Assembly (NCBI GenBank): GCA_027491295.1
Contig: JAIXWK010000003.1
Span: 496,001-560,000 of the forward strand
Direction: 5' to 3'
From: Microbacteriaceae bacterium
Lineage (GTDB): Bacteria; Actinomycetota; Actinomycetes; Actinomycetales; Microbacteriaceae
Length of the DNA stretch: 64,000 bases
Shown here piece after piece: positions 15,365 through 22,311 of this stretch. Numbering within the stretch: position 1 is the first letter of the stretch; the number at the start of each line of letters is the position of its first letter. The notes beneath the pieces are model-generated. The model was not told the origin of the DNA and did not search any database. It was given only the letters and a program-made list of their open reading frames with translations. A program made the position numbers and the translations under genes.

Positions 15365-15955
15365 TTACTTAGCTGCAGGCTTTCTGGCCGCTGGCTTCTT
15401 CGCTACAGGCTTCTTTGCAACTGGCTTCTTTGCAACTGGCTTCTTCGCTACAGGCTTCTTTGCAACTGGCTTCTTTGCTGCAGTGGTCGCCTTAGCAGCC
15501 GCTGGCTTGGCAGCAGGCTTAGCAGCTGGCTTCTTTGCTACAGGCTTCTTTGCAACTGGCTTCTTCGCTGCAGTGGTCGCCTTGGCAGCAGGCTTAGCTG
15601 CTGGCTTCTTTGCTACAGGCTTCTTTGCTGCGGTGGTCTTTGTAGCCGCAGGCTTTTTGGCAGCCGTTGCTGGCTTCTTGGCAGCAGGCTTCTTAGCCGC
15701 TGGCTTCTTGGCTGCTGGCTTCTTGGCTGCGGTGGTGGTCTTCTTCTTTGCAGCTGAAGCTCCCTTTGCAACAGCGTTAGCTGCCTTCTCTACCTCGGCT
15801 AGGGCCTCAGCAGCAAACTTGGTGCCAGCCTTACGTGCATCTTCAGCAGCCTTGGTCGCGGCCTTGCCTGCCTCGTCAGCAAGAATGCCAGCTTCCTTTA
15901 CGGTTACCGCAGAAGTCTTTTGAAAAAATCTCTTTACGTCGTCTAAAAGTCCCAT
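15365..15955 (-). CDS. Lys/Ala/Pro-rich histone H1-like protein
   Basis: The 196-residue product has two parts. Residues 1-75 form an alanine-rich amphipathic helix region (MGLLDDVKRFFQKTSAVTVK, then many Ala/Glu/Lys heptads). Residues about 76-196 consist of tandem AAKKP/VAKKP pentapeptides, strongly basic and without acidic residues. Such tails bind DNA in H1-like proteins and in the HupS/HupB tails of actinobacteria, but here there is no HU domain, so it is a stand-alone tail with a helical head. It may compact the nucleoid or bind RNA or polyphosphate; that is inference. Its upstream ribosome binding site is weak. Confidence 0.8.
   Translation of the reverse strand: MGLLDDVKRFFQKTSAVTVKEAGILADEAGKAATKAAEDARKAGTKFAAEALAEVEKAANAVAKGASAAKKKTTTAAKKPAAKKPAAKKPAAKKPATAAKKPAATKTTAAKKPVAKKPAAKPAAKATTAAKKPVAKKPVAKKPAAKPAAKPAAAKATTAAKKPVAKKPVAKKPVAKKPVAKKPVAKKPAARKPAAK
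15371..15740 (-). repeat. tandem 15-bp coding repeats of the AKKP tail
   Basis: The coding strand repeats units such as GTTGCAAAGAAGCCA encoding VAKKP and AAKKP, some in near-identical runs of five or more. Such DNA is prone to slippage, so copy number should vary between strains. Confidence 0.85.
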
Positions 15956-16647: not shown

Positions 16648-17235
16648 TTATTCAGAGCGCGTGTTCGCCAGTCGGTTCAACATCGAGCCGGTTTTTTCCT
16701 CCGCTGTGATGGCAAAAATCTTGTGGTCTCGCCATGCACCATCGATATGAATGAAGCGTTCCTTTAGACCTTCTTGCCTGAGACCCAATTTTTCAACAAC
16801 TCGGAGGCTTGGCAAATTCTCCGGCCGAATGTCAATTTCAACTCGATGGAGCCCTACGTCATCCATCAAAAAATCAATCGCTAATGCGACAGCGGTCGGC
16901 ATGATGTTTTGCCCCGCGGTGGATTTTGCGATCCAGTAACCGATTGTTGCCGAGGACACTGACCCGTGTTGAACATTGGCCACATTGAGTTGACCCACCA
17001 CCAAGCCATCTTTCAAAATCACAAACCCATACCCGGTTCCGCGCCTGGCCTGCGCTCTCAGACTGGAAATCATCCAGCGGGCATTCACCACGGTTCTAAG
17101 TCCCGGTGTGGTTGCCTCCCAGGGCTCTAGCCAATCTCGGTCTTGAGTAAGCAGCTGCTGCAAGCGCCAATAATCTCTTCGTCCGACTGGACGAAGCGAG
17201 ATTGCTCCATGGGCGATTGGGCGAAATGGGTTCAC
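16648..17235 (-). CDS. GNAT acetyltransferase, RimJ/RimL type
   Basis: The 195-residue protein belongs to the RimJ/RimL/SpeG-like GNAT group, which acetylates N-terminal amino groups or small amines with acetyl-CoA. Marks are the opening ISLRPVGRRDYW, the acetyl-CoA strand region IGYWIAKSTAGQNIMPTA and the closing RVVEKLGLRQEG followed by a short HIDGAWRDHKIFA segment. The GTG at 17235 lies seven bases downstream of a TAATCT element and is probably leaderless. It is divergent from the cyclo-ligase gene with 18 bases between starts. Actual substrate (ribosomal protein or other) is unknown. Confidence 0.88.
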   Translation of the reverse strand: MNPFRPIAHGAISLRPVGRRDYWRLQQLLTQDRDWLEPWEATTPGLRTVVNARWMISSLRAQARRGTGYGFVILKDGLVVGQLNVANVQHGSVSSATIGYWIAKSTAGQNIMPTAVALAIDFLMDDVGLHRVEIDIRPENLPSLRVVEKLGLRQEGLKERFIHIDGAWRDHKIFAITAEEKTGSMLNRLANTRSE

Positions 17236-17242
17236 GCTGGCA

Positions 17243-17248
17243 AGATTA
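17243..17248 (-). promoter_or_regulatory. leaderless -10 element of the GNAT gene
   Basis: TAATCT on the minus strand, seven bases before the GTG start. It leaves no room for a ribosome binding site, so a leaderless mRNA is inferred. Confidence 0.5.
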
Positions 17249-17253
17249 CCTCT

Positions 17254-17796
17254 ATGGAATCCCTCGAAAGCAAATCTGAGATCAGACAGCGCTGCCTTGC
17301 GGCTAGGCCTCAGTCTTCGGAAGGACTTGCAGCCAATCTGGTGCGACTCACCCTTGAGCTCAATGCAAGCGTGATAGCCAGCTATCAGCCACTTGCCAAT
17401 GAGCCCGATGTCGAAGAGTTCAACAGCTGGGTGATTGCGATGGGCAAGACTTTGCTTTTGCCAAGAATCTCAGGTGATGAATTGGTATTTGCTTCTGGGG
17501 ATTTGGAACCGGGCAGCCATGGCATTTTGGAGCCGCAGGGCGAGGCTAGCGATATTTCCGAGTGCGAACTAATTCTTGTCCCAGCTTTGGCTGTGGATGG
17601 CGTCGGTAACAGACTTGGCAAAGGTAAGGGCTTCTACGACCGAGCGCTCTTGTCAGTTACGGGCATCCCGCGCTACGCGGTGGTGTTTGACTCAGAGGTG
17701 CTGGCGGCAATCCCAGCAGAAGCTCACGATGTTTGGGTGACCGGTGCTGTTACGCCAACAGCAATCCATCACTTTCGCGCATCGGCAATCAGTTAA
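17254..17796 (+). CDS. 5-formyltetrahydrofolate cyclo-ligase
   Basis: The enzyme (180 residues) converts 5-formyl-THF with ATP to 5,10-methenyl-THF, returning the stored folate to the one-carbon pool. The family's ATP and substrate motif is visible as LGKGKGFYDR, preceded by the ELILVPALAVD strand. I chose ATG 17254 because the upstream frame runs through the divergent GNAT start and has no family match. FmdB follows after 18 bases, as in related actinobacteria. Confidence 0.9.
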   Translation: MESLESKSEIRQRCLAARPQSSEGLAANLVRLTLELNASVIASYQPLANEPDVEEFNSWVIAMGKTLLLPRISGDELVFASGDLEPGSHGILEPQGEASDISECELILVPALAVDGVGNRLGKGKGFYDRALLSVTGIPRYAVVFDSEVLAAIPAEAHDVWVTGAVTPTAIHHFRASAIS

Positions 17797-17814: not shown

Positions 17815-18012
17815 ATGCCAACTTATTCATACGTCTGCAAAGAGTGTGAACATGCATTTGAGATTCAACAGTCTTTCTCAGATGCTGCTTTGACCAGCTG
17901 CACAAAGTGCAAGGGTGAACTGCGCAAGCAATTTGGCAATCTTGGAGTCAGCTTCAAAGGATCCGGTTTCTATCGAACTGACTCACAGCCTTCTAGCTCT
18001 GCCAGCGACTAA
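17815..18012 (+). CDS. FmdB-family zinc ribbon protein
   Basis: This 65-residue protein has two CxxC pairs (YVCKECEHAF and LTSCTKCKGEL) that form the putative zinc ribbon of the FmdB family, followed by a short Ser-rich tail. Function is unknown; the family was named from a regulator of formamidase/amidase genes. The start has a good GGAGG site. Its TAA stop overlaps the stop of the helicase-like gene on the opposite strand within CTAA (18009-18012). Confidence 0.92.
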   Translation: MPTYSYVCKECEHAFEIQQSFSDAALTSCTKCKGELRKQFGNLGVSFKGSGFYRTDSQPSSSASD

Positions 18013-21000
18013 CCCCAATGCGGTGGGCGCTCGTCATTTAGACGATTGTCGTTATTGTCATCCGGGTCTCCCCAGGCACGACCGGTGTCCTCAAAAGCCT
18101 TGTCCTCAAATAGTGGTTGCGCTTTACGCTCAAGATCAAGGCCCAATTGCTTGGCAATTCGATTAGCTACCTCTTGCGGCTGGGCGAAGATTTCAAGGGC
18201 GTGGACGCGGATGTAGGTCCAGCCCATCGCACGCAAAAGTCCTGGCCTGAGCCAAAGCTTCTCGTCCCAGTTCTCGCCTCTAAGCGCCCAGTCGGCATCG
18301 ATCACAGCCGCTTTGTTCCCGAGCGACACCGCGAGCCCAATTCGATCGCCAAAGTTCAGTGCGACGTTGCAACCAATCTTTTCCAACCTTCTGGCAAGGT
18401 CTGCCAAAAGTGGGTCTGGTTCGCCACTTCGAATATCGCTTAGGAAACTTGGAGCGATTAGGTCTTTTAGCCAGCTTTGATTATCCGGAAGTTTTCCGGC
18501 AGCAAAGTCCTCGAAGTTGTAGCAAGAGACCACGGTCAGTCGTTTTCTTGCAGACACGATCGTGTTGACCATCCAGTGGGAGGCGAATTCCGAATTGAAA
18601 TCGCCAAGTGTTCCCGAAATTCGACCCTCTGGAGTTTTACCAAAACCAACCGAGAAGATAACTCGATCTGCGAGTCGGTGGGTGAACTGGCTCATTGTGG
18701 CGACCTGGAAACGCTCGCGACCGTGGGCGTCAAAGAACTCTGCGAGATTTGCCTGATCCTTCAGCGCTAAAGCCACCGACTGTTCAATGCGGTCGGCGTG
18801 TGCTGCGGACGCGGTAACAACGCAGAGCGACTGCTCAGGCGTCCACCTGGCGTGGTTTAGCACCAGTTCTGCGACCTTAGCTACCTCAGCGTCCATCGAC
18901 TCGGTGGCACCTTCAATAGTCGAGGTTGCAACTGCCCCCTCAAGAATTTGAACATGTTCGAAGTTGTGAGAACCAAACAGCTGCCCGGCTGCCGGTTCCA
19001 AAATCAAACGCTCGCTATAGAAGTTTTGGTTTAGGTAGCTGCCCAAAACTTGACCCTCGGTGCGATAGCTGTGGGTGATGGAGATTGACCCGAAGCGCTT
19101 CGAAATTGCGTCATAGCTTGACTCACGCTTTGGAGCAACATGGCCCTGATTTGGCCTTGCCACTGTGTCAAAGTCCTCAACCAGTGCAAGGGTCGGATCA
19201 CCAAAAACAATCACCTGATTTGCTCGAGCTATTGCTGGAAGTGCCTCCGCCATGGCGGTGGAAGCGGCGTCCAGAATAATCACCACATCAAATATCTCGT
19301 CCTTAGCCAACTCGTGCATGCGATAGGGAGATAGCAGTACCGCGCTAGCCAGCGCATTCCACAGCGGTCCAGCTTCTTGATATCCGGATTTGAGGTTGAG
19401 CTCTCTGGCTCTAAGTAGATTGCGAAGTTTGTCGGCTTGGGCTGGGTGCTTGGTAATTGCGATGGTCCAGCGCTTACCCAAACGATCTTTAACCTCGGCG
19501 TTTCCGTGGTCAATCAGTTGCGTTGCACAGCGTTCGAATTCGGTTTCCAGCTTTGCAATCTCAGTTGCTGAGTACTGCAGGATGGCCGGGTTACGATTCA
19601 CGATCGCCTCAAGTGCAGACTGCCACCAGGCCAATTCAAATTCGCTCTCAACCTGCTCAAGACTTGGATGCAGTTTGCACAGCTCCACAACTAAAGATCC
19701 GAGCCCTAGCTGTTCAAGCTGAGCCACCTTTGGTTCACGCTCCAGCAGTCGATCGAGAATCTCGGTCTTGGAGGCAAGTTCATTGACCTTAGCCTCAAGG
19801 TCATCAAGGCTCAATCGAGTCAACAGTTCGATGTCTGGATTTGGGTCAAGGTGGCGCTGCAACAGATCCAGCACCGAGGTGATTCGCTCGTACTTTTCCT
19901 GAACATCGCTAAGCCCTAGCGGAACCGTCGGCGGGGCCTGGGTTTGGTTGAGCTCCAGCCAACCAATTCGCTGCTGCTCCGCAAGCTGGAGCGAAAGATA
20001 TAGGTTGCTTATCGATGCACCCGGGCGAATGAATTCTTTAGCGAGTTTTTTGAATCTGCGACGCTGTGAACCTGAGAGCTGGCCGCGCTCAGTTCTAGGT
20101 GCGGTTGCTTCAATCATCTGGGCAAGCGATCGGTCATAGATTGAAGGTAGGAACTTATCCAGGGTCTCACGTATACCAAGGAGTAACCGCAGCTGTCTTG
20201 CCCACTGCTCGACGCTTTCGCACTGAACCAGCTTTTGATCGCCCAGGTACCGATTGATCTGGTAGCGAAGGGTCCGGAATTCCTCGCCGGAGATTGACCT
20301 AACCGCACTAAGTGCAGCATCTATCTCAAGCTGGTTTTCAAAGCGAGCAGCGAACCAAGGTGAGTCTTGCGGTCCGTAATTAAACACTTCGAGTTCGAAG
20401 GCATTTCGAAGAGCTGGGAGCGCGGTCTCGGAAAGTCCAGGCAAAAGATCTGTGCGAATTCTTGCGTTGTTTACAGCTGGCACCGGCTTGCCGGCCAGCG
20501 CTGCCAGCTCTCGCATTGCGTCGATCAAACTGACATTAAGCTCTTGGTCTGGATGACCCACCAGCTCGAAATACTTTGCTATTTGAGCTTCTGCTTGCTT
20601 CTTGGCAGACAAAGCGTCAGCGAGGGCAACGGGTTGGGCTTTCTCATTCCGAGAAATTGCACTCACCGCATCGGTCCAACTGTGAGATTCACGGATGGCA
20701 AGACCAGCAAGGCCTGCGGCACCAAGACGTTCTGCCATTTCATCCAAGGTCTGCTGCCTGGGTCCAATAATCAGTGCTCGCTTTGAGGCGTAGGCAAGAT
20801 TTGCAACTAGGTTCACCGCGGTCTGCAGATAGCCACAACCCGGCAGTGTTTCAACCGCAAAGGAATTGCCCGCTAGGGCCCTGGTCAAGACCTCTCGCTG
20901 TGAGTTGTCGGCGTTTGCGACCAAAACCACTTCGTGAGTCGAAGTCAGTAGTGGAACTTCTTCCTCGCCAGTTAGCAAGTTTGAAATTGACTCGTCGAGC

Positions 21001-21620
21001 GAGTACTCCTGCAACTGGGTCATTAGAAGATCCGGCACAAAGTTTCCCAGCACCAAAAGCTTTTCAATTTCAACTCTTTGGCCCGACAGAATTTCAGAAA
21101 CCAAAGACAAAACCGAAAGCGGAATTAGATCGCCCTGTCCAACCGAGACTGCCAAGAGGTCATTCGGGCTGAAACTCTTTCTGACCGAACTGATTAGTTT
21201 TGAAACCGCCGGGTTCAACTGCGGTCTTGGGTCGATTCGAATTTCGTAGTCTTCACCCTTGGAAATTAGGTGGGTTGGCCAAAGCAAAATCGGGAGCTTT
21301 TGACCGCTGTCGAGATCCTGTACCAAACCACCGGCAATGAAAATTGATGCGATGCCAAAGTTGTCTTGGATTCTTGCCGCTTTGAGTTTTATGCGACGCA
21401 CCGTGCTGTGAGCTCGAGCCTGGGCGACTCCATCACGAACCAGGTTGCTGAGCGTTGTGCTTCTGGAGGTAACTAGCTGAGCAAGACCCCCTGGGTGGGA
21501 TCTAGCAAGGTCCACCTGACCGAAGCTGGAAAGCTCAAACGAAACTAAGGGGTTGGTTCCACCAATTCCCGAAAGTTCATCGCGCCAAGCGCGGATGATA
21601 GCGTGCGCTTCCACGCGCAA
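18009..21620 (-). CDS. SF1-helicase-like protein with degenerate ATPase motifs
   Basis: This is the longest gene here (1203 residues). Its architecture is that of large DNA2/UPF1-like superfamily 1 helicases with a C-terminal nuclease-like domain: P-loop region at 250-300, long helical insert about 400-720, second helicase motifs at 775-870, and a Vsr/DUF559-like end (AVIDADW at 1105-1111, GWTYIRVHALEIF at 1133-1145). The key residues are changed: Walker A reads LPGCGYLQT (259-267), without the GKT lysine, and the motif II region reads FDVVIILDAAS (777-787), with DA in place of DE. Motif-like HSYRTEG (850-856) is retained. ATP hydrolysis is therefore doubtful and the protein may be a structural DNA or RNA binder. 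I recall related large actinobacterial proteins in which the P-loop is also odd, which would argue for family-wide change, not decay. The frame is intact throughout. Confidence 0.75.
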   Translation of the reverse strand: MRVEAHAIIRAWRDELSGIGGTNPLVSFELSSFGQVDLARSHPGGLAQLVTSRSTTLSNLVRDGVAQARAHSTVRRIKLKAARIQDNFGIASIFIAGGLVQDLDSGQKLPILLWPTHLISKGEDYEIRIDPRPQLNPAVSKLISSVRKSFSPNDLLAVSVGQGDLIPLSVLSLVSEILSGQRVEIEKLLVLGNFVPDLLMTQLQEYSLDESISNLLTGEEEVPLLTSTHEVVLVANADNSQREVLTRALAGNSFAVETLPGCGYLQTAVNLVANLAYASKRALIIGPRQQTLDEMAERLGAAGLAGLAIRESHSWTDAVSAISRNEKAQPVALADALSAKKQAEAQIAKYFELVGHPDQELNVSLIDAMRELAALAGKPVPAVNNARIRTDLLPGLSETALPALRNAFELEVFNYGPQDSPWFAARFENQLEIDAALSAVRSISGEEFRTLRYQINRYLGDQKLVQCESVEQWARQLRLLLGIRETLDKFLPSIYDRSLAQMIEATAPRTERGQLSGSQRRRFKKLAKEFIRPGASISNLYLSLQLAEQQRIGWLELNQTQAPPTVPLGLSDVQEKYERITSVLDLLQRHLDPNPDIELLTRLSLDDLEAKVNELASKTEILDRLLEREPKVAQLEQLGLGSLVVELCKLHPSLEQVESEFELAWWQSALEAIVNRNPAILQYSATEIAKLETEFERCATQLIDHGNAEVKDRLGKRWTIAITKHPAQADKLRNLLRARELNLKSGYQEAGPLWNALASAVLLSPYRMHELAKDEIFDVVIILDAASTAMAEALPAIARANQVIVFGDPTLALVEDFDTVARPNQGHVAPKRESSYDAISKRFGSISITHSYRTEGQVLGSYLNQNFYSERLILEPAAGQLFGSHNFEHVQILEGAVATSTIEGATESMDAEVAKVAELVLNHARWTPEQSLCVVTASAAHADRIEQSVALALKDQANLAEFFDAHGRERFQVATMSQFTHRLADRVIFSVGFGKTPEGRISGTLGDFNSEFASHWMVNTIVSARKRLTVVSCYNFEDFAAGKLPDNQSWLKDLIAPSFLSDIRSGEPDPLLADLARRLEKIGCNVALNFGDRIGLAVSLGNKAAVIDADWALRGENWDEKLWLRPGLLRAMGWTYIRVHALEIFAQPQEVANRIAKQLGLDLERKAQPLFEDKAFEDTGRAWGDPDDNNDNRLNDERPPHWG

Positions 21621-21730: not shown

Positions 21731-21803
21731 GGCTTCGTAGCTCAGTGGATAGAGCAACGGTTTCCTAAACCGTGTGTCGTAGGTTCGATTCCTATCGAGG
21801 CCA
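21731..21803 (+). tRNA. tRNA-Arg (anticodon CCT)
   Basis: Acceptor GGCTTCG pairs with CGAGGCC, the D arm is AGCTCAGTGGATAGAGC, the anticodon loop TTCCTAA gives CCT, and the T loop is GGTTCGATTCC. The discriminator is A; CCA is not encoded. The convergent HNH gene ends one base downstream. Confidence 0.95.
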
Positions 21804-21804
21804 C

Positions 21805-22311
21805 TTATGCAGCTTGGCGCTGCATCCCCAAAAACGGCTCCCACTGCGGGTCTTCTTTTTCAACTCCACGAACCGTCCAAATCAAACCGCTAGGCATCTT
21901 GGGTGTGACCTTGAGTTCCCAGCCCATCTCTGCCGGAGTCTTATCGCTCTTGTTGTTATTGCAGCGTAGGCAGCAGGCAACTAGGTTTTCCCAGCTGTCG
22001 GCTCCTCCACGAGATTTAGGAAGAATGTGATCAATCGTGTTAGCAGTCTTACCGCAGTAGCCGCAGCGGTGACTGTCCCTTCTCAGGACTCCTCGCCTTG
22101 AAACCGGGATCTTCCGTGAGCCTGGAATTCTTACGTAGCGCTGCAGCAGGATCACGGTTGGTAACTCGAACTCGCGATCTGCGCTGTGGACCTTACCCTT
22201 CTCAGCACCGGCAAGAATGGTGGCCTTTTGGTTCAGCACCAAGATCAAAGCTCGCTTGAATGACACCACGGCTAGCGGTTCGTAACCCGCGTTTAGGACT
22301 AATGTGCGCAA
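21805..22311 (-). CDS. HNH endonuclease domain protein
   Basis: The 168-residue protein has a conserved N-terminal part (LVLNAGYEPLAVVSFKRA) and an HNH/McrA-like zinc nuclease fold: CGYC at 83-86, the catalytic DH at 94-95 within DHILPKSRGG, the Asn of WENL at 109, and CLRCNNNK at 114-121. This small HNH protein is common in actinobacterial chromosomes and is probably a housekeeping DNA repair nuclease and not part of a mobile intron; that role is inference. The ATG at 22311 lies about 65 bases downstream of an intrinsic terminator, so its own leader may be attenuated. Confidence 0.9.
   Translation of the reverse strand: MRTLVLNAGYEPLAVVSFKRALILVLNQKATILAGAEKGKVHSADREFELPTVILLQRYVRIPGSRKIPVSRRGVLRRDSHRCGYCGKTANTIDHILPKSRGGADSWENLVACCLRCNNNKSDKTPAEMGWELKVTPKMPSGLIWTVRGVEKEDPQWEPFLGMQRQAA

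Follow-up and report, generated by a model that had tools for sequence, protein, structure and literature searches.

A conserved actinobacterial helicase-nuclease homolog that has lost its catalytic residues and carries a fused PPHW peptide

We analyzed a stretch of 64,000 nucleotides from a Microbacteriaceae bacterium (assembly GCA_027491295.1, contig JAIXWK010000003.1, positions 496,001 to 560,000 of the forward strand; hereafter the window, to which positions refer unless a locus is named) and found that one of its genes encodes a former helicase joined to a former nuclease. The open reading frame (ORF) of this pseudo-helicase/pseudo-nuclease (18009..21620, minus strand) starts at TTG and encodes 1203 residues without an internal stop. 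Comparison of sequences allowed us to show the loss of its catalytic residues, the recurrence of this loss among relatives, strong purifying selection on the gene, conserved neighbors and the fusion of a small peptide, PPHW, to the C-terminus. As the motor and cutting sites are lost and yet the gene is strongly selected and near-universal in its order, the protein probably works by binding and not by burning ATP. We favor, with moderate confidence, an ATP-independent nucleic-acid-binding platform that carries the PPHW peptide, serves a housekeeping function and resembles, in principle, PriA of Deinococcus radiodurans.

The catalytic motifs were compared residue by residue with those of an intact relative, locus L055 (all motif coordinates are on the minus strand). 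The Walker lysine and Ser/Thr hold phosphate and Mg. The Walker A loop, PPGTGKSQT in its intact form, reads LPGCGYLQT in the window protein (residues 259–267; 20820..20846), with Tyr264 for the lysine and Leu265 for the Ser/Thr, and the GK[ST] of active helicases is therefore missing. Motif II, FDEAS in intact relatives, is ILDAAS (residues 782–787; 19260..19277), where L783-D784 replaces the Walker B Asp-Glu of active helicases. Both replacements had been read by the earlier note and lie inside the ranges that it gave. Motif III is GDPTLAL (residues 807–813; 19182..19202) and motif VI is VSARK (residues 1022–1026; 18543..18557), as against GDERQLP and TRARA in L055; the motif III Gln and the first motif VI Arg of active helicases have become L811 and S1023. 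Motif V (VQGDERD) is likewise lost, as judged by eye. Still present are the Q-motif Gln241 (20898..20900), Thr267, Asp808, Arg853 in the Tyr-Arg of motif IV (residues 852–853; 19062..19067) and Arg1025, so that the Q-motif Gln, the motif IV Arg and the second motif VI Arg of active helicases are all retained. The MTES_1575-type nuclease-like domain (residues 1085–1165; 18126..18368, minus strand) has Gly1095 for its catalytic Asp, and its family model PF18741 scores 14.8 bits (E 0.03), below the cut-off of 38.2; the PD-(D/E)xK-like end suspected of being atypical thus proved to be so.

The domains follow the layout of an SF1 (superfamily 1)/UPF1-like helicase with a C-terminal MTES_1575-type nuclease, including two RecA-like lobes in SF1 order, which bears out the fold order proposed in the earlier note. 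An N-terminal domain (residues 1–225; 20946..21620, minus strand) occupies the place that DUF4011 has in some relatives. PF13195 (DUF4011) matches there in the intact L108 (29.3 bits) and in the degenerate L103 of family f36 (31.8 bits; cut-off 22.2) and in three of ten members of relative set A1; at the gathering cut-off it has no match in the window protein or its genome. Between motif Ia and motif II the secondary structure of the model shows a long helical insertion (residues ~334–757; 19350..20621, minus strand). A Pfam scan of the window protein returned no helicase domain; transglutaminase matched weakly (E 0.14). Sequence searches found no relative of known structure at E 0.1. The fold of the structure model resembles IGHMBP2, Dna2 and UPF1 in Foldseek. 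A promoter scan gave no sigma-70-like site, as against 2.4 expected.

The gene evolves as a selected one. Pairwise dN/dS (the ratio of non-synonymous to synonymous substitution rates; NG86 method) was 0.040 and 0.044 against two ~99% identical relatives, 0.061 at 93% identity and 0.046 at 85% identity, where dS is saturated. For two intact pairs the ratio was 0.265 and 0.286, and for other degenerate pairs 0.03–0.34. Sequencing error or a recent pseudogene is rejected because assemblies of other projects agree and dN/dS is low. The absence of stops and a dN/dS of about 0.04–0.06 fit the view, put forward in the earlier note, that the gene is under selection.

Selection reaches the altered loop itself. 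Ranked by conservation among 28 family sequences, the P-loop reaches percentile 99.7, as against 65 for motif II, 45 for motif VI and 36.5 for the nuclease site; the corresponding figures from nine intact sequences are 99.0, 96.9, 94.6 and 55.2. Motifs II and VI have thus become relaxed in the family. P-loop percentiles are lower elsewhere (76 in f36, 75 in the L058–L070 clade). Such conservation indicates that in the window's family the loop is held for something other than lysine chemistry. The main rival explanation starts from this point: the pocket may bind ATP or another nucleotide and change shape without turnover, as a non-hydrolyzing switch. The loop retains PG.G..QT at this level of conservation, and the Q-motif Gln, motif III Asp, motif IV Arg and second motif VI Arg occur in all 16 window-group sequences. 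The same 16 sequences, however, all have Tyr for the Walker lysine, 15 of them have Leu or Ile for the Ser/Thr, and the contacts of motifs II and III are gone, so that we regard a switch as rather unlikely.

Loss of the motor extends far beyond the window. The tally below covers the fetched loci, a part of all genomes with a match, and leaves out seven outgroup rows as well as L040–L044, for which there is no family code; duplicate loci (L031–L039, L045, L080, L101–L113) were left out of the motif counts. The order is that of the taxonomy used, and families are denoted by codes (f1, f5, f6, f18, f36 and others). Of the 124 copies from the order whose P-loop can be read, the window's own among them, 115 lack the Walker lysine; the actinobacterial relatives with an odd P-loop to which the earlier note alluded are therefore real and widespread. 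The other nine keep both the lysine and DE and are confined to f5 (2/2) and f18 (7/9). Such GK[ST]/DE homologs had been named in the earlier note as grounds for doubt if joined by recent stops in this copy; they exist, while the window copy has no stops and shares its loss with its relatives. In the window's family none of 37 readable copies (one from the genome itself, 19 from the genus, 17 others) has K and DE, and the lysine is absent from all. When 60 extra loci were fetched as a test of the loss, 57 proved to be lost; beyond the order 3 of 11 copies are intact (f34, f41). No true GKT was found at the aligned site in copies read as lost.

Trees were built after dropping near-identical and partial rows and removing the motif columns, with intact long paralogs as outgroup. 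Intact copies sit both at the base and within the order. A single clade of all lost rows was rejected by the approximately unbiased (AU) test (p 0.0055 with 48 rows, 0.00145 with 35 rows), and the minimum numbers of changes were three and four, respectively. This rejection supports the conclusion that the motor died at least twice; joint regain of several motifs is, we infer, not a serious alternative. As to the order of events, the ATPase probably went first in the window's lineage and the nuclease later, because some copies without the Walker residues still have both the nuclease Asp and the Glu/Asp (6/11 in f6, 3/8 in f7 and 6/8 in f16); among the 35 readable f1 copies there is none with both. 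Three features go beyond the earlier note: a loss that spans the order and recurs, an altered P-loop that is conserved in its own right, and a microprotein fused at the C-terminus.

The comparison of clades also bears on whether substitute residues could sustain an unorthodox but working ATPase. Apart from the strong selection on the altered loop, the far clade f36 would fit such an enzyme, as its swaps are conservative: in all seven copies Arg stands in for the Walker lysine, and D-E has become E-D (mostly) or D-D. Several separate motifs were lost together, however, and clades vary in what replaces the lysine (Y, G, A, R, Q, V, H, T and others); D. radiodurans PriA, with Arg for Lys, has no measurable ATPase (PMC4504706). 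We consider a working ATPase very improbable.

The gene is near-universal in the order. It matched at E ≤ 0.001 in 58 of 59 genomes searched, that of the window included, the sole miss being a 77%-complete genome. A wider draw from the order yielded matches at E ≤ 1e-30 in 134 of 149 genomes and in 57 of 60 genera. Genomes as small as 0.8 Mb (G368) and 1.4 Mb (G031) carry a match. At class level 70 of 296 genomes have any match, the weaker ones including long paralogs and tail-only matches. Genus members L034–L036 and L038 are Aquiluna sp., and a Kocuria locus (L044) is placed with f6 in the trees. A genus copy at L022 (G003:C2:543018-546605) is split, and one match to it contains a TAG; this is either an assembly error or a broken copy. 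In a 0.9 Mb genome (G035; L051/L107) the match holds one TGA, with TPGAQVTQA as P-loop and VLGAGE as motif II.

This distribution has to be set against the best named profiles, which suggest a former anti-phage helicase-nuclease, kin of ProA and Hhe, that is decaying or defends without catalysis. NCBIfam ProA (NF058533) matched with E 8.3e-43 and Hhe (NF042953) with E 1.1e-28, at 146.2 bits against a cut-off of 1500 and 99.3 bits against 2000, and the candidate PDC-S37 was the best PADLOC match (E 2.1e-56). Core status is compatible with defense, since in Pseudomonas aeruginosa a core DUF4011 gene flanks a defense hotspot (PMC10250203). The ProA and Hhe scores are nevertheless far under their cut-offs, a dN/dS of ~0.04–0.06 speaks against decay, and the near-universal gene with its shared neighbors is unlike an island gene. 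Matching plasmid (277) and phage (1) records are all below 60% identical, and none covers 80% of the protein. A mobile defense gene is unsupported given this locus, the near-universality and the plasmid and phage matches, and we judge an anti-phage protein, decaying or not, improbable.

The earlier note had further suggested a repressor of an active helicase. Acting as repressor or dominant partner of a homologous enzyme is a common logic among pseudoenzymes, but the window's genome seems to offer no such enzyme. A query with an intact relative found only the window gene, bar a 51-residue match at E 0.009, and AAA_12 and DUF4011 searches found nothing; an active homologous paralog in this genome was therefore dismissed. 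Without a homologous active helicase the idea has no obvious target, and we give it hardly any weight, although a non-homologous target is compatible with these searches. Of the earlier interpretation, the selected, non-catalytic helicase-like protein is thus supported by the sequence data and the repressor role is not.

The pseudo-helicase ends in ~35 residues that are a copy of a microprotein widespread in actinobacteria, fused here to its C-terminus. The fused peptide spans residues 1169–1203 (18012..18116, minus strand) and ends NDNRLNDERPPHWG; the C-terminal motif of the microprotein is near [ND]DxRLxxxxPPHW. In the genus it is fused in 17 of 20 copies, and of the others two run off the contig and one is a split copy, whereas in 13 of 17 same-family copies scanned it ends a small separate ORF directly downstream. 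Fusions also occur in some f6, f10, f14, f16 and f18 copies, and separate PPHW ORFs are exemplified by L102:8198-8356, L103:11133-11273 and L114:5038-5220. We built a peptide profile from 36 DNA-referenced copies, some of them from genomes then searched, and scored a limited number of candidates per genome. It matched 201 of 296 class genomes (E ≤ 0.01, at which ~3 chance matches are expected in 296 genomes), nearly always with one copy each. The peptide is therefore far commoner than the helicase (201/296 as against 70/296) and occurs with and without it. All 30 own-family and same-order genomes of this draw, that of the window included, matched, and in all 29 in which it was located the peptide is either in frame or no more than 1.4 kb downstream on the same strand. 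For f36, 20 of 20 peptides lie downstream of the helicase, on its strand and within 5 kb. Four PPHW peptides tried against Pfam gave no match. In one helicase-less genome an Rv2466c-like mycothiol-dependent reductase gene (L102:7560-8171; PF22234, E 1.7e-91) precedes the PPHW gene.

Taken together, the following course of events would account for these data. The ancestor would have combined an SF1 (UPF1-like) helicase and a nuclease of the MTES_1575 type in one protein. The ATPase residues would have been lost early in the order and the nuclease Asp later in the window's lineage, and the protein would have been kept as a non-catalytic one that neither hydrolyzes ATP nor cuts. A fixed conformation able to bind DNA or RNA may be held by the two RecA-like lobes, the altered but conserved P-loop and the residues retained in the Q motif and in motifs IV and VI, and the PPHW peptide at the C-terminus may dock a partner protein on the nucleic-acid-bound pseudo-helicase.

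Several observations weigh against such a platform. It is only from the fold that we predict nucleic-acid binding; the structure model is no better than middling, its Foldseek TM-scores to the query are 0.07–0.21, and Q241, D784, D808, R853 and R1025, retained near the pocket, would equally suit nucleotide binding. The peptide tail is disordered in the model, and docking is therefore a guess. A pattern scan beside the gene did not find the peptide in 44 of 88 same-order, 3 of 17 same-family and 10 of 11 same-class rows; 37 of these 44 same-order rows hold fewer than 300 bases downstream, and seven peptide-less rows have more room (L136, L156, L165, L166, L168, L180 and L195). The pattern was also unmatched in 517 bases of L051 (G035), in 18 kb of L107 and beside the intact L086 (584 bases), L089 (1005) and L091 (331), and in L027 (G028) the peptide is on the opposite strand. 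As for selection, the dN/dS pair of the window gene with L006 is saturated and the long intact paralogs L074–L076 give 0.519. The motif VI stretch stands at the 93.6th percentile within the genus alone, so that its relaxation is seen only at family depth, and the P-loop itself decays in other subclades of the order (for example L067 and L068). All trees were quick searches in which long branches meet, and the tested group, though defined by motif state, was named after the tree had been viewed. Without f36 and L085 one loss in the remainder is not rejected (AU p 0.077), so that a third loss, inside f18, is something that the trees, and only they, suggest. Finally, the intact f5/f18 loci L108–L110 have FmdB and MscL clusters and no 5-formyltetrahydrofolate cyclo-ligase (5-FCL) gene within 18 kb.

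These last genes belong to the neighborhood of the pseudo-helicase. A 65-residue zinc-ribbon gene, which we take to be FmdB-type (17815..18012, plus strand; PF09723, E 1.7e-14), is convergent with it, and their stop codons overlap; an FmdB-like cluster was present in 22 of 32 loci compared. Next to it lies a 5-FCL gene (17143..17796, plus strand; PF01812) and beyond that a GNAT acetyltransferase gene (16648..17235, minus strand; PF13302), matched in 12 and 11 of 17 loci compared. In several helicase-less loci the peptide gene is near what are presumably an FmdB-type zinc ribbon, MscL or a SAF-like protein, or near 5-FCL. We entertain, tentatively and with less confidence, a fuller picture in which PPHW would be the exposed docking motif of a widespread microprotein and the pseudo-helicase its dedicated nucleic-acid-bound platform, in a so far undescribed core complex of the FmdB–MscL–5-FCL neighborhood. 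A motor enzyme adopted beside the microprotein would then have been repeatedly stripped of its ATPase, next of its nuclease, and sometimes fused, in an order and in one or more further families. The zinc ribbon may be of the same kind as Ruc (Rv0991c) of Mycobacterium tuberculosis, a zinc-ribbon chaperone activated by oxidation (PMC7448276).

On the other side of the pseudo-helicase gene, a tRNA-Arg (cct) at 21731-21804 (plus strand) lies between its start and an HNH endonuclease gene (21805-22311, minus strand), which is near the pseudo-helicase gene also in L032, L034, L035 and L112. Farther away, 15365-15955 encodes a Lys/Ala/Pro-rich repeat protein of 196 residues here and 171 in the near-identical relative L032.

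It is unusual that a motor protein loses its motor and yet is near-universal in an order. Since the loss recurs in a tree that also holds intact relatives, these serve as natural controls and make it testable what a non-hydrolyzing helicase does, and living relatives (f6, f7, f16) reveal in which order the sites were lost. The fused PPHW tail ties the pseudo-helicase to a widespread microprotein, and automatic names such as "helicase" or "ATPase" are misleading for most copies in the order. Pseudohelicases are already known as a kind; a search confined to open-licence papers, three of which mention DUF4011, found nothing among those listed on the recurrent loss and PPHW link of this family, on the peptide or on the family's degenerate motifs.

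Among known systems, working UPF1-like helicases such as IGHMBP2, Dna2, UPF1, Sen1/Senataxin and Aquarius are defined by catalytic residues that are missing from the window protein. It can be called a pseudohelicase in that rooted trees derive it from an intact helicase, Walker A and B are lost, and dN/dS indicates that the gene is kept. Among the closest are the intact actinobacterial relatives of f5 and f18 (L054, L055, L056, L093, L094, L095, L150, L151 and L159), which belong to the same family by tree and share the PPHW peptide, fused or adjacent, but differ in having GK[ST] and DE; L094 has lost the motif III Gln. In L108, the same gene as L055, AAA_11, AAA_12 and MTES_1575 all score over their cut-offs. 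The anti-phage DUF4011 helicase-nucleases ProA and Hhe and PADLOC PDC-S37 resemble the window protein as best profile matches over the helicase core, and the intact relatives match these profiles much more strongly than it does. The two models are longer (1903 and 1797 as against 1203 residues), and the window protein differs further in its lost catalytic residues, scores far under cut-off, core locus and fused PPHW tail. MTES_1575 of Microbacterium testaceum, namesake of the nuclease domain family, is a ~2000-residue fusion of transglutaminase, SF1 helicase, HEPN and Vsr nuclease (PMC3710099). In length MTES_1575 is like the long intact paralogs L073–L079 and unlike the window gene. The window protein is SF1 (UPF1-like), has also lost its nuclease site, carries a fused microprotein and belongs to a family with at least two losses, in all of which it differs from D. 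radiodurans PriA, a member of another helicase superfamily. PMC4504706 describes that PriA as having Arg for the Walker lysine, lost Walker A and B and an unmeasurable ATPase while keeping DNA binding and binding DnaB; the likeness to the window protein is that Walker A and B are lost in both while the fold and the gene are kept.

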